In this document: one piece after another, positions 9,993-52,651 of the stretch
Position numbering within the stretch: the stretch's first letter is position 1
Layout: every line of letters begins with the position of its first letter
Source of the DNA: Oscillospiraceae bacterium
GTDB lineage: Bacteria; Bacillota; Clostridia; Oscillospirales; Ruminococcaceae
Direction of reading: 5' to 3'
Assembly: GCA_017848115.1 (NCBI GenBank)
Contig: JAGAKZ010000084.1
Location: 1-52,651, forward strand
DNA length: 52,651 bases
Position numbers and translations under genes: made by a program
The notes under the pieces: generated by a model
Databases searched by the model: none
Seen by the model: the letters and a program-made list of their open reading frames with translations, nothing else
What the model was told of the DNA's origin: nothing

Positions 9993-10017
9993 AAAATGAT
10001 ATAGAGGGGTTTAGTTT

Positions 10018-12144
10018 ATGAAAAATCTTATTGCAAAAATCAAAGAGCCATTAGTTCCTATTGATGAAATATCAGGGTTTAAGGTAAGACCCGGTTTTTA
10101 TCTTATAAATGGAGCAACAGCAATTAAGAACGGAGTAAATTTTACTATTCACTCCTACAATGCTACTTCGTGTGAGCTTGTGCTTTTTCACAGAAAGAAG
10201 CCTGAGCCGTTTGCAGTAATAAAATTTCCTGAATCATATCGAATAGGAAACACTTTTTCAATGATAGTTTTTGACCTTGATATAAGTGACATCGAGTATG
10301 CATATCGAATGGACGGACCGTATGATAAAAAGAGCGGACTTATTTTTAACAAAGACGCTTATCTTCTCGATCCGTATGCAAGAGCTGTTGCCGATCAGAG
10401 TAAATGGGGAAGCAAAGATGTTCAGAAGAAGAATATGTACAGGGCACGTGTTGTTGATGATACTTTTGTATGGGGAAAGTATCAGAGAAATAAAGTTCCT
10501 TTTCAGGATCTTATCATTTATGAACTTCACGTAAGAGGATTTACCAAAGATGAATCATCAATGGTAAAAAATAAGCGCAAAGGCACATTTGCAGGCGTAA
10601 TGGATATGATACCATATCTTAAAGAACTTGGTGTAAATGCAGTGGAACTGATGCCTATTTTTGAGTTTGATGAAATGGAAGATATACGTGTTGTTGACGG
10701 AACAACGCTTTATAATTACTGGGGTTACAATACAGTTTGTTTCTTTGCACCAAACACATCATATTCATCTATCCAGGAACACAACAATGAAGGTAATGAG
10801 CTTAAAACTCTTATAAAAACTCTTAACGAAAACGGTATAGAAGTAATTCTTGACGTTGTATTCAATCATACTGCCGAAGGTGATGAAAAAGGACCGTTTT
10901 TCTCGTTCAAGGGTATAGACAACAATATTTATTATCTTCTTACTCCAGATGGCAGATATTATAATTTCAGCGGATGTGGAAATTCACTTAACTGTAATCA
11001 CCCGATAGTTCATCAGTTTATACTCGACTGTCTCAGACACTGGGTAATAGATTATCGTGTAGGCGGATTCAGATTTGACCTTGCAACTATTATGGGAAGA
11101 AATGAAGACGGCTCACCTATGAGTAATCCTCCTATACTCGAAAGTCTTGCTTTTGACCCTATTTTAGGAAAAGTAAAACTCATAGCAGAAGCATGGGACG
11201 CAGGCGGTCTTTATCAGGTAGGAAGTTTTCCGTCATGGAGAAGATGGGCAGAGTGGAACGGAAAATATCGTGATGACCTTCGTTGTTTCCTTAAAGGAGA
11301 TGGCGGAATGGCACAAAGTGCGGTAAACCGAATCACAGGATCGCACGACCTCTACAATCCTGAAAAGAGAGGCGAAAATGCATCAGTAAACTTTATAAAC
11401 TGTCATGATGGATTTACTCTTTATGACCTTTATGCATACAACTACAAGCACAATGAAAAGAACGGCTGGAACAACACTGACGGTGACAATGGAAATAACA
11501 GTTGGAACTGCGGACATGAAGGTGAAACAGACGATCCGGAAGTATTAAAACTTAGAAATCGTCTGAGAAAAAATGCATTTGCAGTCCTTATGTGCAGCAG
11601 AGGCGCTGCAATGTTCCCGGCAGGTGATGAATTCTGCAATACTCAGTTCGGAAATAACAATGCATACTGTCAGGACAATATAACATCGTGGCTTGACTGG
11701 AACAGACTCAAAAAGTACAAAGAAATGTTTGAGTTCTGCAAGTTCATGATTGCATTCAGAAAAAAGCATGATGTTATAAGAAGAAAAACAGATATATGCA
11801 CCTGTGGCTTTCCGGATATAAGTATTCATAACGGAACACCTTGGAATACAGAGTTCAGATATGATACAAGACTTACAGGAGTAATGTTTGCAGGAAGAAC
11901 AGCCGATGATAAAAATGATGATATAGTTTTCATTGCAATAAATACATTCTGGGAAAATCAGAATATGCAACTTCCCGAATTACCTCATTATCTTATGTGG
12001 AACGTAGAAATGAACACTTACGAATCCCATAGTAAAGGTACGGATTACAATAAATTAACAGAAAGATACGGAAATACTATTGTTATGAAACCACGAAGTG
12101 TTGTTGTTCTTTCTGCGGTAAAAAGCGATACTGCAGGTAAGTAG
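10018..12144 (+). CDS. glgX: Glycogen debranching enzyme (GlgX / isoamylase type, GH13)
   Basis: 708 residues. An N-terminal CBM48-like beta domain (about 20-150) precedes a GH13 catalytic barrel. Motifs in order: IIYELHVRGFTKDESS, VILDVVFNHTAEGD (region I), GFRFDLATI (region II, nucleophile Asp near 353), IAEAWDAGG (region III, acid/base Glu near 391), NCHDGFTLYDLYAYN (region IV), then the debranching-type KHNEKNGWNNTDG-N-SWNCG-EG stretch. The enzyme cleaves alpha-1,6 branch points of glycogen or starch-derived dextrins. There is no signal peptide, so it is cytoplasmic. It is last in the operon with the binding protein and the GGDEF-EAL protein; the start follows GAGGGG. Confidence 0.93.
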   Translation: MKNLIAKIKEPLVPIDEISGFKVRPGFYLINGATAIKNGVNFTIHSYNATSCELVLFHRKKPEPFAVIKFPESYRIGNTFSMIVFDLDISDIEYAYRMDGPYDKKSGLIFNKDAYLLDPYARAVADQSKWGSKDVQKKNMYRARVVDDTFVWGKYQRNKVPFQDLIIYELHVRGFTKDESSMVKNKRKGTFAGVMDMIPYLKELGVNAVELMPIFEFDEMEDIRVVDGTTLYNYWGYNTVCFFAPNTSYSSIQEHNNEGNELKTLIKTLNENGIEVILDVVFNHTAEGDEKGPFFSFKGIDNNIYYLLTPDGRYYNFSGCGNSLNCNHPIVHQFILDCLRHWVIDYRVGGFRFDLATIMGRNEDGSPMSNPPILESLAFDPILGKVKLIAEAWDAGGLYQVGSFPSWRRWAEWNGKYRDDLRCFLKGDGGMAQSAVNRITGSHDLYNPEKRGENASVNFINCHDGFTLYDLYAYNYKHNEKNGWNNTDGDNGNNSWNCGHEGETDDPEVLKLRNRLRKNAFAVLMCSRGAAMFPAGDEFCNTQFGNNNAYCQDNITSWLDWNRLKKYKEMFEFCKFMIAFRKKHDVIRRKTDICTCGFPDISIHNGTPWNTEFRYDTRLTGVMFAGRTADDKNDDIVFIAINTFWENQNMQLPELPHYLMWNVEMNTYESHSKGTDYNKLTERYGNTIVMKPRSVVVLSAVKSDTAGK

Positions 12145-12157
12145 TATTTGCATAAAA

Positions 12158-12201
12158 ACAAACGGTTCACATGAAACGAAAGGTGAACCGTTTGTTTTTT
12201 T
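12158..12201 (+). terminator. Terminator after glgX
   Basis: Perfect 11-bp stem AAACGGTTCAC (12160-12170) and GTGAACCGTTT (12183-12193), then GTTTTTTT. Confidence 0.9.
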
Positions 12202-12318
12202 ATATTAAATTAAGAAAATATTTGATTTTGTTAAACTAAAATACAGCTGCTGAAAAAAATTTTTGGTTAAATCATTTCGTTACCAAAAAATAATATTTTA
12301 TTTTTATAATTTTTTCCC

Positions 12319-12348
12319 TTGACAAAACATAACTCTCTTTGATATACT
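12319..12348 (+). promoter_or_regulatory. Promoter of the symporter gene, with an inverted repeat at its start site
   Basis: TTGACA 12319-12324, 18-bp spacer, TATACT 12343-12348. Just downstream, GTCG-CTG-CTTTAA (12356-12368) faces TTAAAGCGAC (12373-12382), an imperfect palindrome at the expected transcription start. It could be an operator or a 5' stem. Confidence 0.6.
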
Positions 12349-12414
12349 TATATAGGTCGCTGCTTTAATAGTTTAAAGCGACAACAATTTAAATTAATAC
12401 AATGGAGGCCGGTT

Positions 12415-13974
12415 ATGGTTATAAAGCTAATACTTGTGTTGTATATTCTTATGATGCTGGGCATAGGCGTATCAACATACAAAAATGGCTCATCGGTTGA
12501 TGGCTTTGTTCTTGGCGGAAGAAATGTAGGTTCATGGCTTACAGCATTTGCATTTGGCACATCTTATTTTTCTGCGGTTGTATTTGTAGGCTATGCAGGA
12601 CAGTTTGGTTGGAATTATGGTTTTTCTGCCACATGGATAGGTATAGGAAATGCGGTTTTAGGTAGTGCATTGGCGTGGATGGTTCTTGGTAAAAGGACAA
12701 GAACTATGACAACACATCTAAATGCTTCGACCATGCCGGAGTTTTTTGAAAAACGTTACAATTCAAAGAAACTAAAAACAATATCAGCAGTAATTATTTT
12801 TATATTCCTTATTCCGTATACAGCATCTGTATACAACGGTTTATCAAGACTTTTTGCTATGGCATTTGATATAGACTATGCAGTCTGTATTATAGCTATG
12901 GCAGTTCTTACAGCTGTATATGTAATTATCGGCGGTTATGCAGCAACTGCAATAAATGACTTTGTACAAGGTATAATAATGCTTGGCGGTATAGCAGCTG
13001 TAGTTATTTTTGCACTTAATGAAAAAGGTGGTTTTTCTTCAGCTCTCAAACAGCTTGGAGAAATAGAAGCAACAGGCGTTCCTGCAAATTCATTAAACAG
13101 CATTTTCGGACCTGACCCGATAAATCTTGCAGGTGTTGTTATTCTTACATCTCTTGGTACATGGGGACTTCCTCAGATGGTACATAAATTTTATGCGATA
13201 AAGAGTGAAGACGCAATCAAAAAAGGTACAATTATTTCAACACTCTTTGCTGTAGTTGTTGCAGGTGGTTCATATTTCCTTGGCGGTCTCGGAAGAATAT
13301 ATTGTACAGCAGACAGCAGTGACGGTTCAGGCAGAGTATTTATAGAAAAGCTTGCAAACGGAAAACTTGATTTTGATGCTATTATGCCAAATCTTCTTGA
13401 TACATGTTTGCCTGATATTATGATCGGTCTTGTTGTTGTTCTGGTTCTTTCAGCATCAATGTCAACACTTTCATCACTTGTACTTACATCAAGTTCAACA
13501 GTAACAATAGATATCGTAAGACCTCTTACAAAAGGAAAGATGAGCGAAAAGAAAGAAGTACTTGTTATGAGAATTTTTATAGCTGTATTCCTTATCATTT
13601 CAGTTGTATTGGCACTTAATAAAAACGCATACATTTCAACACTCATGTCTATTTCATGGGGCGCTCTTGCGGGTTCATTCCTTGCTCCTTTTATGTATGG
13701 TCTTTTCAGCAAGAAAGTTACAAAACAGGCTGTTATGGCAAGCTTTATTTCAGGTGTCGGAATAACAGTTGTACATATGATTATTTTCAGTCTCGGATTT
13801 TTCCCTGAAGCAACAAAGGCTGCCGCTTCACTTAAACTTAATATGGCTTCTCCTATAAATGCAGGTGCGATTACTATGTTGTTTGACCTTATAATCGTTC
13901 CGGTTGTAAGTGCAGTTACAAAGAATAAAGATCAGGCAGAGCTTGAAAAAGCATTTGACTGTTATAAAAAATAA
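12415..13974 (+). CDS. Sodium:solute symporter (SSS family)
   Basis: 519 residues of alternating hydrophobic helices (about 13). It has the SSS pattern: a first helix ILMMLGIGVST, then SVDGFVLGGRNVGSWLTAFAFGTSYFSAVVFVG, the conserved GGR and Ala/Ser-rich second helix of PutP/vSGLT-like carriers, and SASMSTLSSLVLTSSSTVTIDI in helix 8 with the sodium-site serines. The substrate is not predictable; sugars, proline, pantothenate and sialic acid are all carried by this family. It is transcribed alone after GGAGG. Confidence 0.88.
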   Translation: MVIKLILVLYILMMLGIGVSTYKNGSSVDGFVLGGRNVGSWLTAFAFGTSYFSAVVFVGYAGQFGWNYGFSATWIGIGNAVLGSALAWMVLGKRTRTMTTHLNASTMPEFFEKRYNSKKLKTISAVIIFIFLIPYTASVYNGLSRLFAMAFDIDYAVCIIAMAVLTAVYVIIGGYAATAINDFVQGIIMLGGIAAVVIFALNEKGGFSSALKQLGEIEATGVPANSLNSIFGPDPINLAGVVILTSLGTWGLPQMVHKFYAIKSEDAIKKGTIISTLFAVVVAGGSYFLGGLGRIYCTADSSDGSGRVFIEKLANGKLDFDAIMPNLLDTCLPDIMIGLVVVLVLSASMSTLSSLVLTSSSTVTIDIVRPLTKGKMSEKKEVLVMRIFIAVFLIISVVLALNKNAYISTLMSISWGALAGSFLAPFMYGLFSKKVTKQAVMASFISGVGITVVHMIIFSLGFFPEATKAAASLKLNMASPINAGAITMLFDLIIVPVVSAVTKNKDQAELEKAFDCYKK

Positions 13975-39734: not shown

Positions 39735-40268
39735 ATGAAAAAGTTTATGGAAAATTCAATTAAGCGTGTGATGGGGAACAAAAAGAATGCTGACAAGAAG
39801 AAACTTAAAGGTTTCACGCTCGTTGAAATCATAGTTGTTCTCGTTATTCTCGCAATACTTGCAGCTGCTATGATACCAGCACTTACGGGGTACATAGATA
39901 AGGCTAATCAGAAGACAGCAATTTCTGAAGCAAGAAACGTTGTTACAGCGGCTCAGACACTGGCAAGTGAGAAGTATGCATTAGGTGGCAAATCGTCGAT
40001 AGGTACATGGGAAACCGCTGAAAATAATAAAGCAAATACTGTTTCCACTAAAGATGGAAAAATTGACATGTCTAATGTGAGGTATGCTGGAGTTTTGGAA
40101 CTTGCTGATATAGTAGTAGAGACAGAGGGCAGTAAGTTAATTGGAGGCTATATAGAGTCATTGGATGTATCTGATAATGGTAAGATAGCTACTATGACAT
40201 ATGTAACTACTAAGGGATATGAAGTTGTATATGAAAATGGTAAGTTTACAACTCCTGATGAGAAATAG
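39735..40268 (+). CDS. Type IV pilin, copy 1
   Basis: 177 residues. A long, basic leader of 26 residues ends in the class III cleavage site KLKG^FTLVEI (Gly 26, Phe +1, Glu +5), followed by the hydrophobic helix VVLVILAILAAAMIPALTGYI that packs the pilus core. The head domain is about 110 residues. The first 60 mature residues are nearly identical to those of the next gene. As first gene of the operon with the best ribosome site (GGTGGAGG) and before an attenuating hairpin, it is a likely major pilin. Confidence 0.95.
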   Translation: MKKFMENSIKRVMGNKKNADKKKLKGFTLVEIIVVLVILAILAAAMIPALTGYIDKANQKTAISEARNVVTAAQTLASEKYALGGKSSIGTWETAENNKANTVSTKDGKIDMSNVRYAGVLELADIVVETEGSKLIGGYIESLDVSDNGKIATMTYVTTKGYEVVYENGKFTTPDEK

Positions 40269-40303
40269 GAATACAGTTAGTTGTTCTGAAAGAAGGATGA
40301 TTT

Positions 40304-40783
40304 ATGAAAAAGATAATTAGGAGAGATGTTCAAGTTTCTCTTAAACGAAAGTCATTTAGAGGTTTTACCCTTGTTGAAATCATAGTTGTCCTTGTTATCT
40401 TAGCAGTACTTGCAACAGCGATGATTCCTGCACTTACAGGATATATCGATAAGGCTAAAGAAAAGACAGCTATAGCAGAAGCAAGAAATATAGTAACGGC
40501 GGCTCAAACATTGGCGTCTGAGAAGTATGCTCTTAATATGTTGGATGAGTGGAAGTCTGATACTAACAAAGCTAAAAGAAATGAATCAATATATAAATTA
40601 GCTGACATAGAATATGACAGTACAAAGTTAAACAGACTTGACCTTGAAGTGGATTCTAAGGGAAAGATAGAATGGTTGGTTTGTCCGATTAATTCGGATA
40701 CAAATGTATCATATATCAATGGTGAGTTTAAAGTAACACTGGTTTCTGACACTGATGGAGACGATTTTGTGTTTGACCTTTGA
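40304..40783 (+). CDS. Type IV pilin, copy 2
   Basis: 159 residues. A leader of 20 residues ends in SFRG^FTLVEI, then VVLVILAVLATAMIPALTGYIDKA. The mature N-terminus through QTLASEKYAL matches copy 1 almost exactly, while the C-terminal head is unrelated in sequence and carries an acidic end (DTDGDDFVFDL). The pattern suggests gene duplication with diversification of the exposed head. Confidence 0.95.
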   Translation: MKKIIRRDVQVSLKRKSFRGFTLVEIIVVLVILAVLATAMIPALTGYIDKAKEKTAIAEARNIVTAAQTLASEKYALNMLDEWKSDTNKAKRNESIYKLADIEYDSTKLNRLDLEVDSKGKIEWLVCPINSDTNVSYINGEFKVTLVSDTDGDDFVFDL

Positions 40784-40862: not shown

Positions 40863-40897
40863 TATAATAAAAATTTATGAAAAAGGAGTTGGGGCAT

Positions 40898-42163
40898 GTG
40901 GCAGTATATCAATACACAGCTTCAAATATCAGCGGAAAGATAAAAAAGGGGCAGATGACTATAAATAATCCTGAATTGCTCAAAGAAGCCTTAAAGGCCA
41001 AAAATCTTTACCTGATAGAATATGAAGAAAAAATAAACAAATCAATAGGAAAAAAACTTAACGGCAGAGAACTTTCGGAGTTTTGCCGTGAGTTAAGTGC
41101 ATTGCTCGGTTCAGGTGTATCTGTAGTACGATCGTTTAATATAATCTGCAAAAGACAGAACACTCCAAAACTAAAGGCAATATATACCGACATTTCGGTA
41201 CAGATAAAAAGAGGTGTTACTCTTTCAGACGCTATGGCAATGCAGGGAAATACATTTCCCGAAATGCTTATAAATATGATAAAAGCCGGAGAAGCAAGCG
41301 GTAAAATAGATCAGACTTTTGAAAAGATGTCAGTACATTATGAAAAAGAATATCGTATGAACAACACAATAAAAAGTGCAATGGCATATCCTAAGATGCT
41401 CGGCGGACTCATAGTAGTTGTTGTCATAGCACTTTTCACATTTATCATGCCAACGTTTTTTGAACTTTTTGAAGGTATGGAACTTCCTTTGCTTACCCGT
41501 ATAGTAATGAAGATAAGTACAACCTTTACCGAAAACTTTTTTACTATAGCAATAGTAGCGGCAGCTATAGTCATAACGTTTTATACAATAATGCAGTTAT
41601 ATAAAGTCAGAAGAGCAGTTGACAAGATAAAAATAAAAATACCAAAAGTCGGACCTCTTATGAAAATAGTATATACATCACAGTTTGCACGTACACTTGC
41701 TTCATTGTACGCAAGCGGAATGAATATAGTCGAATCTTTACAGATATCCAAAAATACTATACCCAATATCTATATAAGAGAGCAGTTTGAAACAGCAATA
41801 AGAAAAGTACGTGCCGGAAATACACTTTCTGAAGTACTTGCAGATGTTGACGGTTTTGACCTTAAGCTTTCGCAGACTGTAGAAGTAGGTGAAGAAACAG
41901 GACGACTTGAAGCCATGCTTGTTTCTACAGCCGATTCTTACGAATATGAGTCACAGAAAGCTATAAGTAAAATCATTTCAATAATCCAGCCTGTTATGAT
42001 AGTTTTTATTGCAGGCATAGTTCTTCTTATAGTTGGTGCGGTAATGCTTCCTATATTTTCTATGTACGGAAATATTGAAGGCTCTGCGGAACCGGAAACT
42101 GAGATCGCATATGTTGAATTTATAGACACAAATGCCGATAAATATAGTGAGGAGATGATCTGA
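40898..42163 (+). CDS. pilC: Pilus inner-membrane platform protein PilC
   Basis: About 421 residues. It belongs to the GspF/PilC family: opening VYQYTASNISGKIKKGQM, two homologous cytoplasmic halves (ELSALLGSGVSVVRSFNII and FARTLASLYASGMNIVESLQI), three membrane helices, and the typical MIKAGEASGKIDQTFEKMS and VEVGEETGRLEAML blocks. It couples the ATPase to pilin extraction. GTG 40898 is preferred: AAGGAG lies ten bases upstream and the family start motif follows immediately. The in-frame ATG at 40877 has no ribosome site. Confidence 0.94.
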   Translation: MAVYQYTASNISGKIKKGQMTINNPELLKEALKAKNLYLIEYEEKINKSIGKKLNGRELSEFCRELSALLGSGVSVVRSFNIICKRQNTPKLKAIYTDISVQIKRGVTLSDAMAMQGNTFPEMLINMIKAGEASGKIDQTFEKMSVHYEKEYRMNNTIKSAMAYPKMLGGLIVVVVIALFTFIMPTFFELFEGMELPLLTRIVMKISTTFTENFFTIAIVAAAIVITFYTIMQLYKVRRAVDKIKIKIPKVGPLMKIVYTSQFARTLASLYASGMNIVESLQISKNTIPNIYIREQFETAIRKVRAGNTLSEVLADVDGFDLKLSQTVEVGEETGRLEAMLVSTADSYEYESQKAISKIISIIQPVMIVFIAGIVLLIVGAVMLPIFSMYGNIEGSAEPETEIAYVEFIDTNADKYSEEMI

Positions 42164-43041
42164 TGACTACGACATTATTTGTATCAAATGAGACTATTCA
42201 GGTAGTATCCGGTACTGCAAAAGGAAAAAAACTTATTATAAACGATATAATTACAGAACCGGTAAAAGAAGGTACGATCATCAACGGCGTTATTACAGAT
42301 TCTTCACAGCTTAAAAATGATATTGATCAGATATTTAAAAACAATAAGAAGCTCGGAAAGAAAATAAATGTTATCGTTGATGGTTCTTCTATAAACACAA
42401 AAATACTTGAAGTACCACTTCTTAACGAAGCAAAGCTTATGCCTTTTATAGAAACAAACTATCCGGAGGTTGAAAACCTTGACAAGATGCTTTTGGATTA
42501 TATGGTGCTTGAAGGAAAGAATGAGGCTGGGGGCGCCACAGTGCTGTCTGTACTTACAGAAAAAGATTTTGTAAATGAATATTCCGAACTGATAACATCT
42601 TTGGGGATAAAGATAGATAGTATAGATATTTCTCTTAGCAGCCTTATAAAACTTGTTAAATTTGGAATAAAAGCACTTGGTGAAACATTTATAGTAGGCG
42701 TTCTCGATAAAAATATTCTTGCACTTGTTTTGTTTGTAAGAGGAAAATTCAGATTTTCAAGACGTATACGTATAGTTTCGGAAATAGGTTCCGAAGAAAT
42801 TTTGCCTGAGATGGTAAAAATTCTTTCAAATATGATTCAGTTTAACAAATCTGAAAAAACAAATGCTGATATTTCCGATATCTATATAGGCGGTTTTCTT
42901 CCGGCAGACAACGAGATCTATAAACAGCTTACGGATTCACTTGATGTAAATGTCGTTTCTTTTCCGGAACTTGAAAATATACGCATACCGGACGGAAGAC
43001 GACAGGGGGATTTTATATACACTATGGGAAGTATCCTGTAA
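42163..43041 (+). CDS. pilM: PilM-like pilus assembly protein
   Basis: 292 residues, soluble. Divergent actin-like protein: beta-rich start (TTLFVSNETIQVVSG), KINVIVDGSSINTKILEVPLLNEAKLMPFIETNYP as in PilM, and a late IYIGGFLPADNEIYKQL glycine turn. In other species PilM binds the cytoplasmic tail of PilN and links PilB to PilNO. The family is assigned from weak motifs plus position; its start overlaps the pilC stop (ATGA). Confidence 0.8.
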   Translation: MTTTLFVSNETIQVVSGTAKGKKLIINDIITEPVKEGTIINGVITDSSQLKNDIDQIFKNNKKLGKKINVIVDGSSINTKILEVPLLNEAKLMPFIETNYPEVENLDKMLLDYMVLEGKNEAGGATVLSVLTEKDFVNEYSELITSLGIKIDSIDISLSSLIKLVKFGIKALGETFIVGVLDKNILALVLFVRGKFRFSRRIRIVSEIGSEEILPEMVKILSNMIQFNKSEKTNADISDIYIGGFLPADNEIYKQLTDSLDVNVVSFPELENIRIPDGRRQGDFIYTMGSIL

Positions 43042-43084: not shown

Positions 43085-43693
43085 TTGAATAGGATAAAAA
43101 ATAAAAATATAAACCTGTATGAACGACTGAAACAATCAGAGGAAAAGGGAAAAAGCAAAAAGAAAAGCATGAAGTTCAAGATAATAGTATTTGGTGCATC
43201 GGTACTCGGAGCATCAGTTGCAGGTTTTCTTGGTGTAACACTTTATGCAAATTCCGTACAGGAAAAATATGATGAAATAAATGCAATGGTAAACGATCCT
43301 GTTCTTGTACTCACGATTGAAGAAGACAACATATTTTTATCGAACAATGCAGCACTTGAACAGATAAAGGTAAAATATGATGAAACAACGTTACTTATGC
43401 AAAGCTCAAGTAAAATAAAGGAAAACCTTACTCCCGGGCTTATAAATGATATTCTTTCCTGTCAGACAGCAGATGTCAGGGTTTATCAGATAAGTTTTGA
43501 CGGAGATAATATGAATATATCGTGTGTTACAACTTTTGCTGACAGTTCAGCACAATTTGTATCGGCGCTTGAAAGAAGAAATATATTCGGAAGTATAGAT
43601 TATGACGGTTTTGCAGGTCAGGGCGATCAGTACACGTTTAGCGTTATAGCTCCGTTTTTAGAAAAGGAAGAGGTGATATCTGATGGACAATAG
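43085..43693 (+). CDS. pilN: PilN-like pilus alignment protein
   Basis: 202 residues. The cytoplasmic start contains NKNINLYERLKQ, equivalent to the conserved I-N-L-L/Y motif that binds PilM. A single membrane helix (about 33-55) is followed by a periplasmic-type domain with a coiled helix and alpha/beta fold. The start is TTG 43085 after GGGGTGATG. Its end overlaps the next gene by 11 bases, which suggests translational coupling. Confidence 0.85.
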   Translation: MNRIKNKNINLYERLKQSEEKGKSKKKSMKFKIIVFGASVLGASVAGFLGVTLYANSVQEKYDEINAMVNDPVLVLTIEEDNIFLSNNAALEQIKVKYDETTLLMQSSSKIKENLTPGLINDILSCQTADVRVYQISFDGDNMNISCVTTFADSSAQFVSALERRNIFGSIDYDGFAGQGDQYTFSVIAPFLEKEEVISDGQ

Positions 43694-44396
43694 TAAAACT
43701 TCTCCCAGACAAATAGCTATGCTGGTAATACTTATAGGCGTGCTCGTGGTAGTAGTAGCTGTTCAGTATTTTATCCGTCCGACTCTTACTGAGGCTTCAG
43801 AGTTGAAAGCTCAGACAGAAGTACTTGAAGAAAAGTACTTAAGTATGCAGGAACAGTCGCTTATGCATATGGTTGACGGTGCTATTTATGAAGAGTATCG
43901 TACCGAACTTGAAGAACAGGGAAAGCAGATGTTACCTTACATGAAAAGTAATGAACTTGATGAGATAGTAACTGATATGGTGCTTTCGAGCGGACTTGAA
44001 ATTGGTTCTTTGCGAATAGGTGATATACGTGACTATAAAGTAAGACTTCTTTATGAAGAAAAATCAGATAACACATCCGAAGAGGAGTCGTCAAATGGAG
44101 ATTTTGAAGATTCTGGATTTCCGGACATGAACCTGTATCCGGGTGCAGAGTTGATAATGGAAGATGAGATGTTTTATCTTCAATATAAAACAGGTCATTA
44201 TTCATGCGTTCTTGATTATCAGCTTAAAGGAAATTATGATCAGATCAGAACTTTAACTGATAAGATCATAGCTGATAAATCAATGGGTATAGAAAATATA
44301 TATTTTACAAACTCAGGTGATGTTTCGGCAGATGGAGAGTATGACCTTAATATAAGCATTGTAGTTTATATGTTTGACAAACTTCCCGATTTCTGA
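43683..44396 (+). CDS. pilO: PilO-like pilus alignment protein
   Basis: 237 residues. Short cytoplasmic start, membrane helix AMLVILIGVLVVVVAVQYFI (about 10-30), coiled coil (TEASELKAQTEVLEEKYLSMQ), then an alpha/beta domain with a Ser/Glu-rich insertion. It is the usual partner of PilN. Assignment is by topology and operon position. Confidence 0.85.
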   Translation: MDNSKTSPRQIAMLVILIGVLVVVVAVQYFIRPTLTEASELKAQTEVLEEKYLSMQEQSLMHMVDGAIYEEYRTELEEQGKQMLPYMKSNELDEIVTDMVLSSGLEIGSLRIGDIRDYKVRLLYEEKSDNTSEEESSNGDFEDSGFPDMNLYPGAELIMEDEMFYLQYKTGHYSCVLDYQLKGNYDQIRTLTDKIIADKSMGIENIYFTNSGDVSADGEYDLNISIVVYMFDKLPDF

Positions 44397-44412: not shown

Positions 44413-44826
44413 ATGAAGGGTAAAAAGCTCAAAGGTTCCGCACTGTTATGGGCTATATGTACATTATTGATTTTTATGGTTATAGTAACCGGAATAGTTT
44501 CTTTAAATCAGCAGTATGTAAATGAAGAAATAAACTCTTATTCGGAAAAAAAGGCAGAATACATCGCGAGATCCGGCATTGACATAGTTGTAAATGAAAT
44601 AGAAAACGGAAAGCTTGATGAGCACCTGAAAAAAGCGTCAGAATTTAATATTATTCTTGAGATGGAGGAAGGCGTATCATGTGATATCACTGTACAAAAA
44701 AGTGATAAGTTCATAACCCTTGTTTCAAAAGCTCAGAATGGTATAAGTGAAGATGTTGTATGTGCCAGATTAGTGTTGAGACGTGTAAAAAATAAATGGG
44801 AGTTTCTTGGGTATTTTGTTTATTGA
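44413..44826 (+). CDS. PilX-like pilus assembly protein
   Basis: 137 residues. KGSALLWAICTLLIFMVIVTGIVSL followed by NSYSEKKAEYIARSGIDIVVNEI is the pattern of PilX/GspK N-termini: a hydrophobic helix lacking a normal prepilin Glu+5, then an A/S-G-x-x helix. It may be a non-cleaved or atypically cleaved minor pilin. ATG 44413 is chosen with GGAGG seven bases upstream; the longer frame from 44374 overlaps pilO without a ribosome site. Confidence 0.75.
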   Translation: MKGKKLKGSALLWAICTLLIFMVIVTGIVSLNQQYVNEEINSYSEKKAEYIARSGIDIVVNEIENGKLDEHLKKASEFNIILEMEEGVSCDITVQKSDKFITLVSKAQNGISEDVVCARLVLRRVKNKWEFLGYFVY

Positions 44827-44835
44827 GGTGATGAT

Positions 44836-45237
44836 ATGAAGAAAAAACTTTCCGGTATGACGCTTGTTGAAGTTGTTACAGCAGTTGCCATCATATTTCT
44901 TGTTTCGGCAGCAGCTTACGCGGGGATATGTACAGCAGGAAAATTTATGGTGAGAGGTGCTGATATACGTGCAGAAGCCGAAAAATCAGCAGAATCGCTT
45001 GATCAGAAGATAAAGACAGGAGTTTATGATACTACTGAGACAACAGCTGTTACATATGTAGTTGTAAGTATGATTGAGAGTGAAACAGAGATTATGGGTT
45101 CTGCTTTGGTTGATATTTATAAAGTCAAATCAGGCACAGAAGTATATTCATATGCATATTATCAGCCGTGTGTAACAGAGATAACAACTACAGAAACAAC
45201 AGCTGAAACAAAAATTTCTGAAGCAACAGAAGAATAA
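44836..45237 (+). CDS. Minor pseudopilin with SGMTLVE signal
   Basis: 133 residues. Leader of seven residues ending in KKLSG^MTLVEVV (Met at +1, which is common in minor pilins), then the hydrophobic helix TAVAIIFLVSAAAYAGICTAG. The small head has a Thr/Glu-rich tail (ITTTETTAETKISEATEE). Probably a priming or tip minor pilin. The ribosome site GAGGTGATG overlaps the preceding stop. Confidence 0.88.
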   Translation: MKKKLSGMTLVEVVTAVAIIFLVSAAAYAGICTAGKFMVRGADIRAEAEKSAESLDQKIKTGVYDTTETTAVTYVVVSMIESETEIMGSALVDIYKVKSGTEVYSYAYYQPCVTEITTTETTAETKISEATEE

Positions 45238-45250
45238 GGAGGTAGATCCG

Positions 45251-45805
45251 ATGAAAAAAAGATTAAAGGGATTTACTCTTACAGAAGTAATGGTTTCACT
45301 TGTTATACTGACTATAGTGGTAACTATTTCTTCTACCATGATTATTTCTTCGTTGAATCTTCTTCTGAAAAATGCATTTATACGTGATGCACAAAATAAC
45401 GGAAATGAAATATATCAGTTGCTTGAAGATAAATTAAGATATGCACAACAGTTTAAAGTTATTATTCAAGATGATGAAGATTCTCCTATATCAGCAAGTT
45501 ACACAGAAACAATTGAAATTGATGGAGAGGGAATGAAGATCAATTCTAAAAGTATTTATGATAAAAAACAACTAAAAAATGCAGATTGTTGTATACGCTT
45601 GATGCAAAAAGATACACTTAGAGATATACAACTTACAGTAGAGTTAAAACGTGATAATGAACTGATTTATAGTAAATCGGGAAATGTAACTCTTGAAAAT
45701 GCAGATGTTGAAGGAAAAAATAAGATGGGCGAATATGTTAGCAATCTTGAAACGGAGAAACTAATAGAAGGAAATATAAAAATATCAATAGGATATTACG
45801 GTTGA
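45251..45805 (+). CDS. Minor pseudopilin (PilW/GspJ-like)
   Basis: 184 residues. Leader of seven residues ending in RLKG^FTLTEVM, helix VSLVILTIVVTISSTMIISSL, then a head of about 150 residues. The length and the helix continuing into a QNNGNEIYQLLEDKLRYA segment fit a GspJ/PilW-type minor pilin. It starts after GGAGGTAGATCCG. Confidence 0.88.
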   Translation: MKKRLKGFTLTEVMVSLVILTIVVTISSTMIISSLNLLLKNAFIRDAQNNGNEIYQLLEDKLRYAQQFKVIIQDDEDSPISASYTETIEIDGEGMKINSKSIYDKKQLKNADCCIRLMQKDTLRDIQLTVELKRDNELIYSKSGNVTLENADVEGKNKMGEYVSNLETEKLIEGNIKISIGYYG

Positions 45806-45850: not shown

Positions 45851-45912
45851 CAGACAAAAAAATTAAAAGGAAATATATCGACTTAAATTAAATGTTATGG
45901 GAGGAAAACAAA

Positions 45913-47589
45913 TTGAAGAACATACCTATAGGTGAGGTTCTGAAGGAATATGGGTACATAACCGAAGAACAGATTCAGGAAGCTTTACAATATCAGAAAA
46001 CTGAAGCAGGAAAAGGAAAACGACTTGGTATACTCGTCCAGGAACTGAACTTTGTAACAGAATTACAGGTTCTTGAGTGTCTGGGAAAAAAGCTTGATCT
46101 TCCTCTTGTAAATATGGCAGATGTCAAGGTAGATCTTGATGCGGTAGAAAAAGTACCGAAACAGCTTGCTGTTAAGTATAATGTATTTCCGTTCGGACAG
46201 AAAAACGGAAGACTACAGCTTGCGATGTCAGACCCTCTTAACTTTTATGCACAGGAGGATATAAGACAGATAGTTGATATGCCTCTTGATATTATGCTTG
46301 CCGAAAAGGCGGTCATAACAAAGGAAATAGATCATAACTATGCGGAAGTCGGTGCTAAGATAGCGGCACGTCAGGCTAATATATCTGTTCAGGATGCGGC
46401 ACTGCCGGAAATCGAGATAGAAGACGGTGACGATGATGTTCCTGTAATTAAACTGGTAAATTCCTTGCTTGCACGTGGTTACAGTGCAAATGCAAGTGAT
46501 ATACACATAGAACCTTTTGAAGGACATACGCAGGTACGAATGAGAATTGACGGTATGATAGTTGACTTTGTAACTTTGGCAAAATCACTTCATATGTCAC
46601 TTGTAGCCCGTATAAAAATCATGGGTAATATGGACATAGCGGAAAAAAGAATACCTCAGGACGGTAACTTCAGAACGATAGTTGAAGGTTTTGATATCAG
46701 TATACGTGTATCGGTTATTCCGACCATATACGGCGAAAAAGTTGTTATGAGATATCTTACCTCTGATACGACTATAGATAAAGCCGGACACTTTGGTATG
46801 GAAGAGTTTGCTTATAAAAAATTAAGCAAGATGCTTGAAGCACCAAACGGCATTATTTATATAACAGGGCCTACAGGTTCAGGTAAGACTACAACCTTGT
46901 ACATGGTACTTGAACATCTTGCAAAAAGACAGGTTAATATTTCAACGATAGAAGACCCGGTTGAAAGAGGATTACCGAAAATAAATCAGATGTCAGTAAA
47001 CGTTGCGGCAGGACTTACATTTGGAGTAGGGCTCAGGGCACTTCTCAGACAGGACCCTGATATAATAATGCTCGGTGAGACCCGTGACGCAGAAACAGCA
47101 GAAATCTCGGTAAGAGCGGCAATAACAGGACATCTTGTTGTTTCCACACTTCATACCAATGATGCTATATCATCAATAGTCAGACTTGAAGACATGGGAC
47201 TTGCGCCTTATCTTGTAGCAAGTTCGCTTGTTGGAATAGTGGCTCAGCGACTTGTAAGAAAAGTTTGCGGAAACTGTTCGTATGAAGTTGAACCTACACC
47301 TGAAGAAATAGCGATAATCGGTCCTGATATACCGGTTATAAAAAAAGGCAAAGGATGCCACATATGCAACAACACAGGTTACAAAGGCAGAGTTTCTATA
47401 CATGAAATGGTTCTTATTGATAAAAAATTAAAAAGAATGATCACAAGCGGAGCAAGCAATGATGAAATGTTTGATTATGCTGTAAATGAGCAGGGGATGA
47501 AAACGCTCAGACAGTGTGCGATTGATCTTGTACGTCGTGGTATAACGACGCCGGCAGAAGTAATAAAAGTTTCTTACGATACCGATTAA
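45913..47589 (+). CDS. pilB: Pilus assembly ATPase PilB
   Basis: About 558 residues. An N-terminal GspE/MshEN domain (IGEVLKEYGYITEEQIQEALQYQK) precedes the ATPase core. Walker A is GPTGSGKTTT (about 318), the Asp box and Walker B lie in LRQDPDIIMLGETRDAETAE, the His box is ITGHLVVSTLHTNDA, and a CGNC...CHIC zinc tetracysteine follows. It drives pilus extension. MshEN domains can bind c-di-GMP in other bacteria; whether this one does is not established. TTG 45913 follows GGGAGG by eight bases and gives the family start; ATG 45892 lies before the ribosome site. Confidence 0.95.
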   Translation: MKNIPIGEVLKEYGYITEEQIQEALQYQKTEAGKGKRLGILVQELNFVTELQVLECLGKKLDLPLVNMADVKVDLDAVEKVPKQLAVKYNVFPFGQKNGRLQLAMSDPLNFYAQEDIRQIVDMPLDIMLAEKAVITKEIDHNYAEVGAKIAARQANISVQDAALPEIEIEDGDDDVPVIKLVNSLLARGYSANASDIHIEPFEGHTQVRMRIDGMIVDFVTLAKSLHMSLVARIKIMGNMDIAEKRIPQDGNFRTIVEGFDISIRVSVIPTIYGEKVVMRYLTSDTTIDKAGHFGMEEFAYKKLSKMLEAPNGIIYITGPTGSGKTTTLYMVLEHLAKRQVNISTIEDPVERGLPKINQMSVNVAAGLTFGVGLRALLRQDPDIIMLGETRDAETAEISVRAAITGHLVVSTLHTNDAISSIVRLEDMGLAPYLVASSLVGIVAQRLVRKVCGNCSYEVEPTPEEIAIIGPDIPVIKKGKGCHICNNTGYKGRVSIHEMVLIDKKLKRMITSGASNDEMFDYAVNEQGMKTLRQCAIDLVRRGITTPAEVIKVSYDTD

Positions 47590-47615: not shown

Positions 47616-50600
47616 ATGAAAAAGTATAAAGGATTTACACTTACAGAGGTAGTGTGTGTACTTGTAGTTGGAGGTATTGTTGCTGCGGCTGCGGTTCCGG
47701 GGATAAATGGTTATATAAAGCACTCCAAGGCTGCTTCATGCAAAGCCAATACTGACGAACTTAAAGTTGATCTTAAATATGCTGTAAATTCAAAGAGATT
47801 TGCAAACTGCGAGGAGATCAACAATAAGATTAAAAAAGTAATAGAGGAATATAGTCATTCCGAGTTGGTTCCTATTGAACTTACATCTGAAAATGAAAGA
47901 ATAGAAACGAACAATATAGAAGGGTTAAAATCTCATCTGGCATATAGTGTGTCAATGTGTCCTAACGACAATGAATTCTATGTTGAATGGGTTATTACAC
48001 AGGATGAAAACGGCGAATATCATATTGATTTTATATGTGAATGTGACTGTAATGACAATGAAGCAAATACTGCAGAAGAATTGTTGTCGCTTGATGCTAA
48101 TATTATAAACATATCACTGGAAACAGATGAAGGTATATATATTAGTGCGGCTGATACCATTGAAGATGATCTTAATATCAAAATGGACCACTTCATGAGC
48201 GGAATACAAGGTATAGTCAGACCACCTGTTGATGATACAAATAATGATTCTTCTCAGGGTGATACTTCTGTTTCTGACGAAGAAAAACTTGATAACTGGC
48301 TGGAAGAAACAAACAAAACGGATGATGGAACTCTTGTGGGTTTTACTCTTGACAAGGATAATAATGTAGAGTGGATATGTTATTATAAAGATTATGATGG
48401 TTTGAGATATTTTATAACTACAAGAGAAGGCGGAGAACCTGTTATAGAATATATTGATATACAGGAAAATTCAGAAGCTGCAAATTATGTTCCACCTGCT
48501 GAAGGTTCACTTGGTTCAACTGTTTATAAGAGTGAATGGACAAAGGGCGAACAGACACGCAGCATGAAGATAACAAAATATGTCGGAAATGTTGTGGACG
48601 GACAGATATCAGAAGATAAGGAAGTAAAATGGACACAGCGAGATAAAGACTGGTATATTGAAAGCTGGCAAGAATATCCTATAGTTGAGCCGGATAAGAG
48701 TTTTATCTGTTCAAAACGTAAACCTGTAAAAGCAGAGTTGAGTTATGATGATGTTAGTCATAAGTATAATATGGTTATACACTATGATGATGAATCAAGT
48801 ATAGCTATAGATATGATAACAGCAAATCATATTGATATAGTAAATTCAGATAGCAGTGAAAGTCGTAGAGTATGGTATCTTTTGAACGGATATATAATAT
48901 CTGATAACAAGATGGAAGATAAAGATAATTGGACGTACGCTTTTGATGACGGTAGTCTTAAAATACTTGAAGATGTTGTAGATAATGCAGGAAAAAATCT
49001 TGAAAATTTTGAAAACCTCAAGATCAATGAACTGTATTTCTTGTATCAGGAAACATACAAATTTTATGAGAACGATGGTAGTTTTAAATACGAACCTATA
49101 ACTGTGGATTCTAAATTAAAACGTACTCTTGTTGATTCAAATATTCTTTTGGAGAAAGACGGATTTTATCCACAGGGTATATTTGATATTACAATTCACA
49201 ATGGTAATGAATCTGCTCCGACAATAATTGAAGACAATGTAAAAGCACTTATTCCGTTTTATGATGATGCTTTTAAATCAGGATATTATTTTACAGAATC
49301 ATCTGATTCTGATTCATCTGATTTGCCTGATTCATCAGAAACTAAGAAAGAGAAATATGATGCAACCGAAGTGAAGAAGATTGCGGACAGGGGAACTGCT
49401 GATTTTGAAGTATGGTATGTAGAATCAGAATCATCACAACCTGTATCATTAGGTTCTGTTGAAAGAGTATTTGATGCAGGAAGAATTGTGTATGAAAATG
49501 GCGAGTTTGTACCAAAAGGTGATTTTCATACTGTTATCACTAAGAAAAATAACAATGAAACTGAAACGATTACAAATAAACCTGAAGAATGTGAGCTGAG
49601 TTATTACGATGCGATTCTTGATGAAGGTTACTATTTCATGAGCCTTGATGAAAACGACGATTATAAATATAATGCTAAAGAAATAAGTGAACTTGTAAAA
49701 GAAGGTCAGGTAAACTTTAAAGCATACTATGAAATCGATGAAGATGTTTTCGAAATAGGTGTTGTTAATTCAAAGATTGACTCTGACATAGTGTATATTG
49801 AAGAAAGTAAAGAATATTGTGTAAAGTCAACAGTTGTTATAAATCAGGGCAATAGCAATGAGAACATCAGTATTGAAAAAGAAGTGGAATATTTCAATGA
49901 TACAACCGGAGTAGGTTATTACTTTGAATTTACAGATGATAAGGGCAAAAAAATAACTTCACAGGAGATAAACGAAAGATTTGAAGGATATACCGGAAAA
50001 GTTGAAGTATATCATCAGTACGATGCGGATAAAGAACCTATTTATTGTGGTACAATAGAACGTGTTCTCGACAATGCGGAACTTGTGTATGGTAAAGATG
50101 GTAAGTTTGCACCTATGGGTGATTTCCATACTGAAATCCATAACTATGATGATGATAAATTGTCGACAACATATAAAAGTGTGTCTCAGAGAGATGTCCT
50201 TAAATATTATTATGATAATAATGAAGCAAAAGAAGGATATTACTTTAAAAATACACTGAATAATCAGTTGTACACTGCAGATAAGTTAAACGATATAGCA
50301 CACAGTGAACCTGTTGATTTTGAGATGTATTATGTCAAATCGGATAAGGACGAAGTAATAGGTACTATTACTTCTGATGTTACATCAACATTGGTGGAAA
50401 CTGATGTTAAAAATGAGTTTGCTGTAAATTCAAAAATAACAGTAAATTATGAAAATAAAGATAACAGCGAAAACAAGGGTAATTATACTTTTGATTATGA
50501 TGTAAACTACTATGATGAAACATCGGGTATAGGTTACTATTATACATTTGACGGCAGTGACGATATTATACAGCCGGAAGAGCTTAAAGCAAGATTTGAG

Positions 50601-52651
50601 TTGTATACAGACAAGGTTAATGTTTATCACAGGTATAGCGAACACAAAGCTCCTATCGAAGTTGGTATGATAAAGCGTGAACTTACTGATAAAAGTACAG
50701 AACTTGTATATGATGCAAATAAGAGATTATTTGTACCTATGGGTTCGTTCTATACATCTATTGAAAATTATGCACCTGAAGGAAAAGATATTCAGATGTG
50801 TGGTGGACAGCCTGAAAAGCGTGAACTTCAGTATTTTAACGAAGGTTCAGATGAAGGTTACTATTTTGTAGATGCTCAGGATAATAAATATAATGCAGAA
50901 GATGCAAGCAGACTTATTCATAGCAGATCAGCGAAGTTTGAAGTATGCTATAAGGATGCGAATATAAATACCAAGGTAGGAAGCACGCAATCGATTATTG
51001 CTTCGGAAATAGTAAGAGGCAAAGACAATACATATCCTGTAGTTTCTAAAATTACAATAGACTATACAAGCTATGGCAAAGAAAGTAGCTTTGTTGATGA
51101 AGGAAAGAAGTTTGTTATAGACAATACACCTGTATATTATGACAGCACAGCAGACAATTACTATTACTACAAGTGGTCTGATATGAATGGTGATATCATC
51201 ACTATAGACAATTTTGAATACAAATTTGCAAATTACACCGGAAAAGTAGATGTATATCATCAGTATGCAAAAGATGAAGAACCACTTACAGTAGGTACAG
51301 TAGAAAGAGTATTTGAAAACGGAACTATCAGGTATACAGACGGACAGTTTGTACCGGTGGGTAATTTCCATACAGATATTCAAAATGCTGAATCTAATGT
51401 AAATACCGGAGCAAATGAAGAGTGTGTACTCAAATACTACAACGAAACAATCGGTGAAGGTTATTACTTTATAAATTCTGATAACAGTGGTGATACAAAG
51501 AAATATACTGCGGAAGAAGTAAGCAAACTCGCAAAAAATAAGCCTGTAAGATTCAACGCATACTATGCGGTAGCAGGAAAAGAGGAATCAGTTTCTATTG
51601 GTGCAGTAGTTTCAACAGCAAGAGCAAGTGTAGCATATGATAATACAACTGATAAGTATACAGTAACAGCGATATTCACAATAAAATATCCAAATGGAGA
51701 AGATGTAGTATCTAAGGTAGTTGAAGAATACAATGAAACAAACAAAGAAGGCTACTACTTTGAATTTACAGGCGAAAAAGGAACAAAATCAACTCAGGAA
51801 CAGCTTAATAACAGATTTGAAGGCTTCACAGGCAAGGCAGAAATCTACTATCAGTGTGGAGACGGAAAGACTGTTGTTAAAGCCGGAGAAGTTGAAAGAA
51901 TACTTGAAAGTACAGAACTTACATATGAAAATGAAGTATTTGTACCAAAGGGAACATTCCACACAGAAGTAAGAAGCCTTGATGGAAGTCAGTCACTTGA
52001 AACTATTTACACAAGCGAAGGTAAAGAATGTGTACTTTCTTACTACGATAAAGCACTTGATGAAGGTTACTACTTTGAAGATGCAAGCGGTAATAAGTAT
52101 ACAGCCGAAACTGCAACAGCACTTATCAAGAGTGAGCCATCAAGCTTTGGTGTACATTACAAAGACGGCGAAAATATCAAAGATATAGGAAATGTAGAAT
52201 CCTCAATTTCTTCAGCAATAGAAAGAGGAGAAAACCATACATATCCTGTAACATCAACAATCACAGTAAAATACGGTGAAAACAGCTTTACTGTAGATAA
52301 CACACCGGTATACTATGACGGAACATCTAAGAATTACTACTATTACAAGTGGTCAGATTCAAATGGTGATATGATCACAGTAGGCGAATTTGCAGAGAGA
52401 TTTGCAAATTACACCGGAAAAGTAGATGTATATCATCAGTATGCAGAAGGTAAAGAACCACTCGCAGTAGGTACAGTAGAAAGAGTATTTGAAAACGGAA
52501 CTATCAAGTATACAGACGGACAGTTCGTACCGGTGGGCAATTTCCGTACAGATATTCAGAATGCTGAACTTGAGGTAAATACCGGAACAAGTGAAGAGTG
52601 TGTACTCAAATATTACAACGAAACAATCGGCGAAGGTTATTACTTTACAAA
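47616..52651 (+). CDS. Giant pilin-headed tandem-repeat surface protein (open at window end)
   Basis: At least 1678 codons; the frame is open to the last base. It starts at ATG 47616 after GGGGCGGAG, 26 bases after pilB. Residues 1-6 are a minimal leader with site KKYKG^FTLTEVV (Gly 6, Phe +1, Glu +5), then helix CVLVVGGIVAAAAVPGINGYIK. Residues to about 200 form a pilin-like region; an acidic Pro/Ser/Asp linker lies near 203-230. From about 555 the protein is tandem repeats. The xEGYYF landmark falls at residues 670, 873, 1080, 1281, 1483 and 1673, a period of about 200. Each unit also has a second GYY(Y/F) strand, Y-TGKV-VYHQY, G-VERVF, FVP-G-FHT and ECVLxYY. I do not recognise the repeat family. 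Position in the operon and the prepilin signal argue it is assembled on or displayed by the pilus; an adhesin role is inference. Confidence 0.9.
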   Translation, partial: MKKYKGFTLTEVVCVLVVGGIVAAAAVPGINGYIKHSKAASCKANTDELKVDLKYAVNSKRFANCEEINNKIKKVIEEYSHSELVPIELTSENERIETNNIEGLKSHLAYSVSMCPNDNEFYVEWVITQDENGEYHIDFICECDCNDNEANTAEELLSLDANIINISLETDEGIYISAADTIEDDLNIKMDHFMSGIQGIVRPPVDDTNNDSSQGDTSVSDEEKLDNWLEETNKTDDGTLVGFTLDKDNNVEWICYYKDYDGLRYFITTREGGEPVIEYIDIQENSEAANYVPPAEGSLGSTVYKSEWTKGEQTRSMKITKYVGNVVDGQISEDKEVKWTQRDKDWYIESWQEYPIVEPDKSFICSKRKPVKAELSYDDVSHKYNMVIHYDDESSIAIDMITANHIDIVNSDSSESRRVWYLLNGYIISDNKMEDKDNWTYAFDDGSLKILEDVVDNAGKNLENFENLKINELYFLYQETYKFYENDGSFKYEPITVDSKLKRTLVDSNILLEKDGFYPQGIFDITIHNGNESAPTIIEDNVKALIPFYDDAFKSGYYFTESSDSDSSDLPDSSETKKEKYDATEVKKIADRGTADFEVWYVESESSQPVSLGSVERVFDAGRIVYENGEFVPKGDFHTVITKKNNNETETITNKPEECELSYYDAILDEGYYFMSLDENDDYKYNAKEISELVKEGQVNFKAYYEIDEDVFEIGVVNSKIDSDIVYIEESKEYCVKSTVVINQGNSNENISIEKEVEYFNDTTGVGYYFEFTDDKGKKITSQEINERFEGYTGKVEVYHQYDADKEPIYCGTIERVLDNAELVYGKDGKFAPMGDFHTEIHNYDDDKLSTTYKSVSQRDVLKYYYDNNEAKEGYYFKNTLNNQLYTADKLNDIAHSEPVDFEMYYVKSDKDEVIGTITSDVTSTLVETDVKNEFAVNSKITVNYENKDNSENKGNYTFDYDVNYYDETSGIGYYYTFDGSDDIIQPEELKARFELYTDKVNVYHRYSEHKAPIEVGMIKRELTDKSTELVYDANKRLFVPMGSFYTSIENYAPEGKDIQMCGGQPEKRELQYFNEGSDEGYYFVDAQDNKYNAEDASRLIHSRSAKFEVCYKDANINTKVGSTQSIIASEIVRGKDNTYPVVSKITIDYTSYGKESSFVDEGKKFVIDNTPVYYDSTADNYYYYKWSDMNGDIITIDNFEYKFANYTGKVDVYHQYAKDEEPLTVGTVERVFENGTIRYTDGQFVPVGNFHTDIQNAESNVNTGANEECVLKYYNETIGEGYYFINSDNSGDTKKYTAEEVSKLAKNKPVRFNAYYAVAGKEESVSIGAVVSTARASVAYDNTTDKYTVTAIFTIKYPNGEDVVSKVVEEYNETNKEGYYFEFTGEKGTKSTQEQLNNRFEGFTGKAEIYYQCGDGKTVVKAGEVERILESTELTYENEVFVPKGTFHTEVRSLDGSQSLETIYTSEGKECVLSYYDKALDEGYYFEDASGNKYTAETATALIKSEPSSFGVHYKDGENIKDIGNVESSISSAIERGENHTYPVTSTITVKYGENSFTVDNTPVYYDGTSKNYYYYKWSDSNGDMITVGEFAERFANYTGKVDVYHQYAEGKEPLAVGTVERVFENGTIKYTDGQFVPVGNFRTDIQNAELEVNTGTSEECVLKYYNETIGEGYYFT
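49278..52651 (+). repeat. Tandem protein-coding repeats of about 600 bp, with a 1176-bp higher-order duplication
   Basis: Landmark GAAGG(T/A)TA(C/T)TA(C/T)TT codons occur at 50232, 50853, 51456, 52062 and 52632, with earlier, more diverged copies at 49623 and 49281. Distant copies are similar only at protein level. The block starting near 51170 recurs near 52346 with long identical runs; AATTACACCG is at 51231 and 52407, exactly 1176 bases apart. This indicates a recent duplication of two units at the distal end. Confidence 0.85.

Follow-up and report, generated by a model that had tools for sequence, protein, structure and literature searches.

Type IV prepilins are inserted into the membrane by Sec, cut by a prepilin peptidase and polymerised via their N-terminal helix, and docking into a filament is generally considered to require a Glu at +5. 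PilC/PilY1 uses an ordinary secretion signal, and BspA-type LRR proteins are not known to use a prepilin signal for export or anchoring; the entry IPR026906 presumably stands for this BspA-type LRR. Pilins with large extra modules have already been described as "modular pilins", and section 9 of that account lists the combination of a pilin with IPR026906 among the 15 commonest architectures, with no clear function given (PMC8179133). The most extreme case of added domains named in the part of this source available to us has 860 residues, and its supplement may list larger ones. PilB and PilC of S. sanguinis are modular adhesive pilins for which a tip position has been obtained by modelling (PMC8179133, PMC9934059), and the first of these papers, in its available part, leaves a position along the shaft possible for modular pilins.

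The stretch of DNA analysed here, called the window below, is contig C71 of genome G000 (Oscillospiraceae bacterium, GCA_017848115.1, JAGAKZ010000084.1, 52,651 nt), from an assembly that is 81% complete and consists of 108 contigs. It carries a pilus operon in which two pilins are followed by pilC, pilM, genes in the pilN and pilO positions, three minor pilins, pilB and finally a giant prepilin gene (Table 1). The giant gene occupies a single open frame of 1,684 codons that runs from 47598 to the window end; the preferred start at 47616 lies 26 bases past the pilB stop (47589) and has a Shine-Dalgarno-like ggggcggag just upstream. The original prediction of a one-frame giant at this distance from pilB is borne out, and the true gene is much longer than the part in the window. 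The first of the three minor pilins, which gives no match to Pfam N_methyl, carries a G-S-A-x-L-W motif that recurs in all seven other loci of the genus, and it is without Glu5 in 8/8 loci. Among the genes compared between G000 and the sister genome G003, pilA1 and pilA2 (39735-40783) are the fastest-changing, with 64% and 52% protein identity, while the pilB protein is identical. A horizontal origin of the giant gene is unsupported by its G+C content (34.3%, against 35.2% upstream).

Table 1. Pilus operon and parts of the giant gene in the window.
Feature	Position	Strand	Basis
pilA1 (name used here), pilin, 177 aa	39735..40268	+	N_methyl E 2.2e-08
pilA2 (name used here), pilin, 159 aa	40304..40783	+	N_methyl E 3.9e-08
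pilC, platform protein	40877..42163	+	PF00482 T2SSF E 3.6e-55
pilM	42163..43041	+	PF11104 E 1.3e-10
pilN-like, by position alone	43085..43693	+	no family match over cut-off in Pfam/NCBIfam
pilO-like, by position alone	43683..44396	+	no family match over cut-off in Pfam/NCBIfam
K-like minor pilin, candidate tip-complex cap (putative role)	44413..44826	+	G/SALLW, no Glu at +5
minor pilin, I-like by position	44836..45237	+	N_methyl E 7.8e-05
minor pilin, J-like by position	45251..45805	+	N_methyl E 9.2e-08
pilB, extension ATPase	45892..47589	+	T2SSE E 1.6e-119, MshEN E 1.4e-16
giant modular prepilin gene, reaches contig end	47616..52651	+	open frame; probable continuation G000:C49:1-5796 from repeats and synteny
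leader MKKYKG, predicted prepilin-peptidase cleavage Gly/Phe	47616..47633	+	sequence, Pfam, NCBIfam
pilin helix and conserved head, common to genus homologues	47634..49127	+	alignable to about residue 510
stalk, 12 domains of ~100 residues (last partial), A/B alternating	49254..52651	+	profile matches, residues 553-1684

The N-terminus of the giant protein carries a class III signal (short leader, Gly/Ala, hydrophobic helix, Glu at +5) that scores over cut-off both with Pfam N_methyl (residues 7-32, E 1e-06) and with NCBIfam TIGR02532 (25.6 bits against a cut-off of 16.3), in agreement with the six-residue leader and Gly-1/Phe+1/Glu+5 that had been read from the letters. After removal of this leader the mature sequence is predicted to open with FTLTE. 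It had also been asked whether homologues keep a site of the cleavable type, and the motif [GA]FTLxE with Glu at +5 is indeed present in 9/9 heads. In the nine-row head alignment four cysteines are invariant (window-row positions 42, 115, 143 and 145). A profile of the head matches alpha-1 of polymerised pilins, for example PilE1 8pfb (E 1.3e-08), which we take to be the S. sanguinis protein, and the structure model shows helices and then four strands, at a confidence too low to demonstrate a pilin fold past the helix or to support a comparison of folds (pLDDT 52.5). Beyond the helix the head is, judging from its sequence, large and diverged from pilins.

The head is followed by the stalk, for which the original prediction gave a tandem repeat of about 200 residues; the repeats are real, and the unit turned out to consist of two alternating, related domains of about 100 residues, A and B. 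A profile made from the units in the window picks up 12 domains there, 13 on contig C49 of the same genome (of which the first is partial) and 35 in G003, giving a total of 25 full or partial domains for G000. In the model of an A+B pair (pLDDT 87.2, pTM 0.76) there are two beta-rich domains, each with a strand-helix-strand followed by long strands. For the stalk repeat, Pfam gave no family over cut-off and the PDB no sequence below E 0.2. Pfam lines for Tcp10_C, Ogr_Delta, DUF5797 and a spider toxin in the G003 protein were rejected as chance matches, as they fall within the repeats and no single stretch passes; the whole-protein score of Ogr_Delta is 26.7 against a cut-off of 26.3. Domains two apart in G003 are mostly 27-47% identical and those four apart up to 99%, and since the latter are so alike, the block of four domains (about 391 residues by spacing) is, by this measure, the most recently amplified unit. 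The A+B profile, applied to 198 relatives at E <= 1e-3, finds the repeat in G000 and G003 only. A rebuilt single-domain profile detects copies close behind the head, one in G007 (E 4e-08) and a pair each in G004 and G006 (E 3e-06 to 1e-04), and nothing above chance in G001, G005 and G009. Because of these weak copies, the stalk domain seems from sequence to predate its expansion.

The frame stops at the window end because the contig breaks within the repeats. Contig C49 starts inside the same kind of repeat (89% DNA identity over the first 1.4 kb) and holds a frame of 1,931 open codons. In G003 the whole homologue lies on one contig directly after pilB; it has 4,694 residues, about half a megadalton at about 110 Da per residue, and its head is 80.9% identical to that of G000. 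The 6.3 kb that lead from the last 96 bases of the window frame into C49 are 99.4% identical to their G003 counterpart. On account of the shared repeats and the synteny with G003, C49 very probably carries on the giant gene of C71 for another 1,931 residues. The two contigs were treated separately. Neither C49 nor G003 contains the frameshift or stop past the window that had been named as a possible objection.

The C-terminal end consists of BspA-type LRR_5 repeats, a kind of domain with no particular tie to pilus biology, with E 1.9e-67 on C49 and 6.3e-66 in G003; for the window's own gene this assignment depends on C49 being its continuation. N_methyl and LRR_5 occur together in 7/7 of the long homologues scanned (those of G003, G007, G004, G005 and G006 and two of G001), and such a tail suggests a role in adhesion. 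The beta-propeller of PilC/PilY1 (IPR008707) has no Pfam match at E up to 1 in the part of the gene inside the window, and none at E up to 0.01 on C49 or in the homologue of G003.

Within the genus, pilB of this operon type is found in nine of 11 genomes (78-100% identity, E <= 1e-100). In all eight genomes whose contig continues, a prepilin-headed gene comes after pilB, directly in seven of them and with one 367-aa frame in between in G006; in G010 pilB lies at the contig edge, and the locus is left out of these eight. The follower is a giant in 7/8 loci, with lengths of 4,694 (G003), 1,909 (G007), 2,718 (G004), 2,568 (G005) and 2,794 residues (G006), and with two prepilin-headed giants after pilB in G001, of 3,186 and then 1,950 residues. 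These last two are tandem genes (G001:C1, L042, 279-8427 and 8729-18286); after the second, and overlapping it in a different reading frame, comes an LRR_5 stretch of 774 residues, as though a frameshift had broken the gene. Neither pilB of this type nor a giant gene was found in G002 (85% complete) or G008 (98% complete). In G009 the homologue (L044, 7800-9592) has 354 residues and comprises the conserved head alone, and no trace of stalk or LRR was detected in the 3.7 kb searched, which include its end and the sequence downstream. This could be a short version of the gene, the outcome of a deletion or an error of assembly, so that either the giant tail is dispensable or that locus is broken. 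The dN/dS values of the giant's parts, G000 versus G003, are 0.19-0.33, and the gene is, by this comparison, under purifying selection. Since the frame is conserved in G003 and under such selection, a chance frame is excluded. Trees of pilB and of the head have their main split in common and place G007 differently, and the head branches are much longer.

Giant prepilins are also found beyond the genus. The family sample (148 genomes) has at least four N_methyl frames of at least 1,000 residues, of which at least two (G071, G054) lie outside the genus. A search of the order sample (394 genomes) with the head alignment gave at least nine frames of more than 1,500 residues outside the genus, in at least eight genomes including G054, with little similarity to the alignment beyond the pilin helix. 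In the phylum sample (398 genomes) the N_methyl search shows no frame of at least 1,000 residues among the best-scoring matches listed, and the six pattern matches in viral contigs include no relative. We compared ten giant frames from nine genomes outside the genus. Other pilus genes or prepilins occur in the sequence stretch taken around the frame or within about 3 kb of it for seven of them (G232 C14, G298, G200, G161, G054, G335 and G405; the G298 frame reaches the contig end). No pilus gene was recognised within about 3 kb of the other three (G232 C12, G321 and G071), and a prepilin lies about 6.7 kb from G232 C12. LRR_5 is absent from the nine frames scanned with Pfam (G054 was left out), and the bodies show little over cut-off other than GLUG (G405, G321) and M26_N (G232 C12); N_methyl falls just below cut-off in G321. 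When the first 100 residues are trimmed off, all of these frames except G054 and G071, eight in number, are mutually related, so the notion that these bodies are mutually unrelated was rejected, and none of the ten matches the bodies of the genus giants at E <= 1e-5. The eight form a second giant prepilin family (L058-L065; 1,529-3,405 residues, seven genomes), related along parts of their bodies. On these sequence comparisons, giant prepilins recur in the order with at least two kinds of body.

Other features of these proteins were seen on the way. At L060 (8595-17174) and L064 (2880-13097) the giants of other families have a hydrophobic stretch and a basic tail at the C-terminus, such that both ends could lie in a membrane, and in L060 a Cys-rich acidic stretch lies ahead of the hydrophobic one. 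Other members of the family also show a middle size class of prepilin-headed proteins with 638, 756 and 865 residues (L068 3626-5542, L069 5084-7354 and L070 6289-8886); all three adjoin large frames of 782-948 residues, and those of L069 and L070 adjoin pilB-/pilC-like genes.

Further matches to pilus genes lie elsewhere in G000. There are two prepilin-peptidase matches on two other contigs, and a second type IV pilus locus on C20 (about 7079-13040) has pilB-like, pilT-like, prepilin-peptidase and small prepilin matches. The ATPase adjoining the second pilB there is called PilT-like from its position and size, and because of it pilus retraction may be possible in this bacterium. C41 carries one more ATPase together with a short peptidase, which may be tad-like. 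No secretin match was found in G000 (81% complete), and for this reason an outer-membrane gate probably sets no limit on head size. The question raised in the original prediction, how assembly could let such a large head through, is therefore less of a puzzle than it seemed.

We consider it reasonably probable that the product of this gene is a giant modular type IV pilin whose long stalk carries an adhesive LRR tip out beyond the pilus tip, much as PilY1 does in diderms. The protein is giant, pilin-headed, coupled to the operon and adhesin-like in its tail, as first proposed for a pilus-borne adhesin; its incorporation into the pilus is our inference, and its position in the filament is suggested by analogy. 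The chain would cross the membrane by Sec unfolded and fold outside, with the pilin helix holding it in the membrane, and the prepilin peptidase would cut after the Gly of the leader. PilB, PilC and PilM would then add the giant via its helix, alongside the K-, I- and J-like minor pilins with which the filament begins; the K-like pilin without Glu5 may cap the filament, and the giant would join below this cap. The head would cross the membrane before folding and emerge through the wall afterwards, probably with no outer-membrane gate to pass. Stalk and LRR end would project past the pilus tip as an adhesive fibre and bind a surface, a polymer or a partner cell, and the copy number of the repeat (1-2 in three species, 25 in G000, 35 in G003) may tune the length of the stalk.

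The alternative that survives best, although we think it unlikely, is a surface adhesin that has borrowed the prepilin signal for membrane anchoring or secretion only and never enters a filament. The large head, diverged from pilins past the helix, would suit such a protein, as would the three of ten giant frames elsewhere in the order that have no recognised pilus gene nearby, but the coupling to the pilus operon in all eight readable loci of the genus and the Glu at +5 kept in every one of the nine heads speak against it. A giant pilin could also sit along the shaft, as a brush or as a cross-linker of pili into a mat or biofilm, instead of forming a fibre at the tip. Glu5 allows any position, and no secretin was found that would block placement in the shaft; however, the modular pilins of S. 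sanguinis, as modelled, fit the tip only (PMC9934059, in its available part), and we regard the shaft as improbable for the giant. It is more doubtful still that the protein is a tether, with its head in the pilus and its tail on polymers of the surface or on the cell wall, so that the pilus would be fastened to the cell that makes it: a hydrophobic stretch and basic tail end two giants of other families (G232 C12 and G321), but nothing of the kind was noticed among eight C-termini of the genus, and the sortase motif [LIVF]Px[TS][GASN] is absent from the last 120 residues of all eight, so that sortase anchoring through an LPXTG-like motif is ruled out for them. Finally, a misassembled repeat array or decaying pseudogene, which the contig break inside the repeats of an incomplete and fragmented assembly might suggest, is hardly credible given the whole frame without stops on one contig of G003, the giants without a long array in five other species and the purifying selection noted above.

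There is also a wider picture, which we offer tentatively and would not yet call probable: giant pilins may be a recurring monoderm class of tip fibre that replaces PilY1, with LRR-tipped stalks in this genus and other bodies elsewhere in the order. As a rule of thumb, a domain spans about 3-4 nm, and at that spacing a stalk of up to 35 domains would extend perhaps more than 100 nm. The other members would have bodies of 1,500-3,400 residues, in one further family (eight of the ten frames) and two frames without a detected relative among those compared. Were this true, single proteins as large as about half a megadalton would be mounted by the pilus machine.

The claim of an "undescribed system" is too strong, as modular pilins have been published, and a known family for pilin-headed adhesins exists in part, in the described pilin plus IPR026906 architecture (PMC8179133, in the part available to us); "extreme, undescribed variant" of modular pilins fits. 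What is new is the size and the expandable stalk, modular pilins being known, apparently including the LRR family. Among the titles and abstract openings listed by literature searches, none dealt with giant or LRR-tailed pilins. PilFind has a length limit of under 350 residues (PMC3244431, available part), and a limit of this type would by design filter out giant prepilin genes. If the giants are assembled, a monoderm pilus machine mounts proteins with about ten- to thirty-fold the size of a pilin, and these bacteria would have a PilY1-like tip and offer a test of how pilus and cargo cross peptidoglycan, an open question named in a review (PMC6916266, available part). The stalk, variable in copy number, provides a natural series for studying reach versus adhesion.

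Among known systems, PilB and PilC of S. sanguinis share with the giant a monoderm type IV pilus, a class III signal with Glu5 and a binding module on a pilin, as far as the available parts of PMC8179133 and PMC9934059 describe them. They have 454 residues (PilB) and 52.8 kDa (PilC) with one vWA or lectin module each, whereas the genus giants have 1,909-4,694 residues, a head of about 500 residues and an LRR tail, with an expandable stalk in two species. The pilin plus IPR026906 proteins of PMC8179133 have the same N-terminal motif and, if our understanding of IPR026906 is right, the same LRR family, a comparison at the level of the listed architecture. BspA-type LRR surface proteins have LRR_5 in common with the giant. 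The type IV pilus cluster of R. flavefaciens 007 and, in R. albus, the GP25/CbpC pilins stand for Ruminococcus type IV pili with a link to cellulose; the R. flavefaciens cluster (pilT, pilD, small pilins) resembles the C20 locus and not the operon of the window, and no giant pilin is seen in the available part of the source (PMC3672088). PilC/PilY1 is, like the giant, a very large adhesive protein proposed to sit at the pilus tip, but unlike it is a non-pilin with an IPR008707 propeller, and it is absent in monoderms (PMC9934059 for the absence, in its available part).
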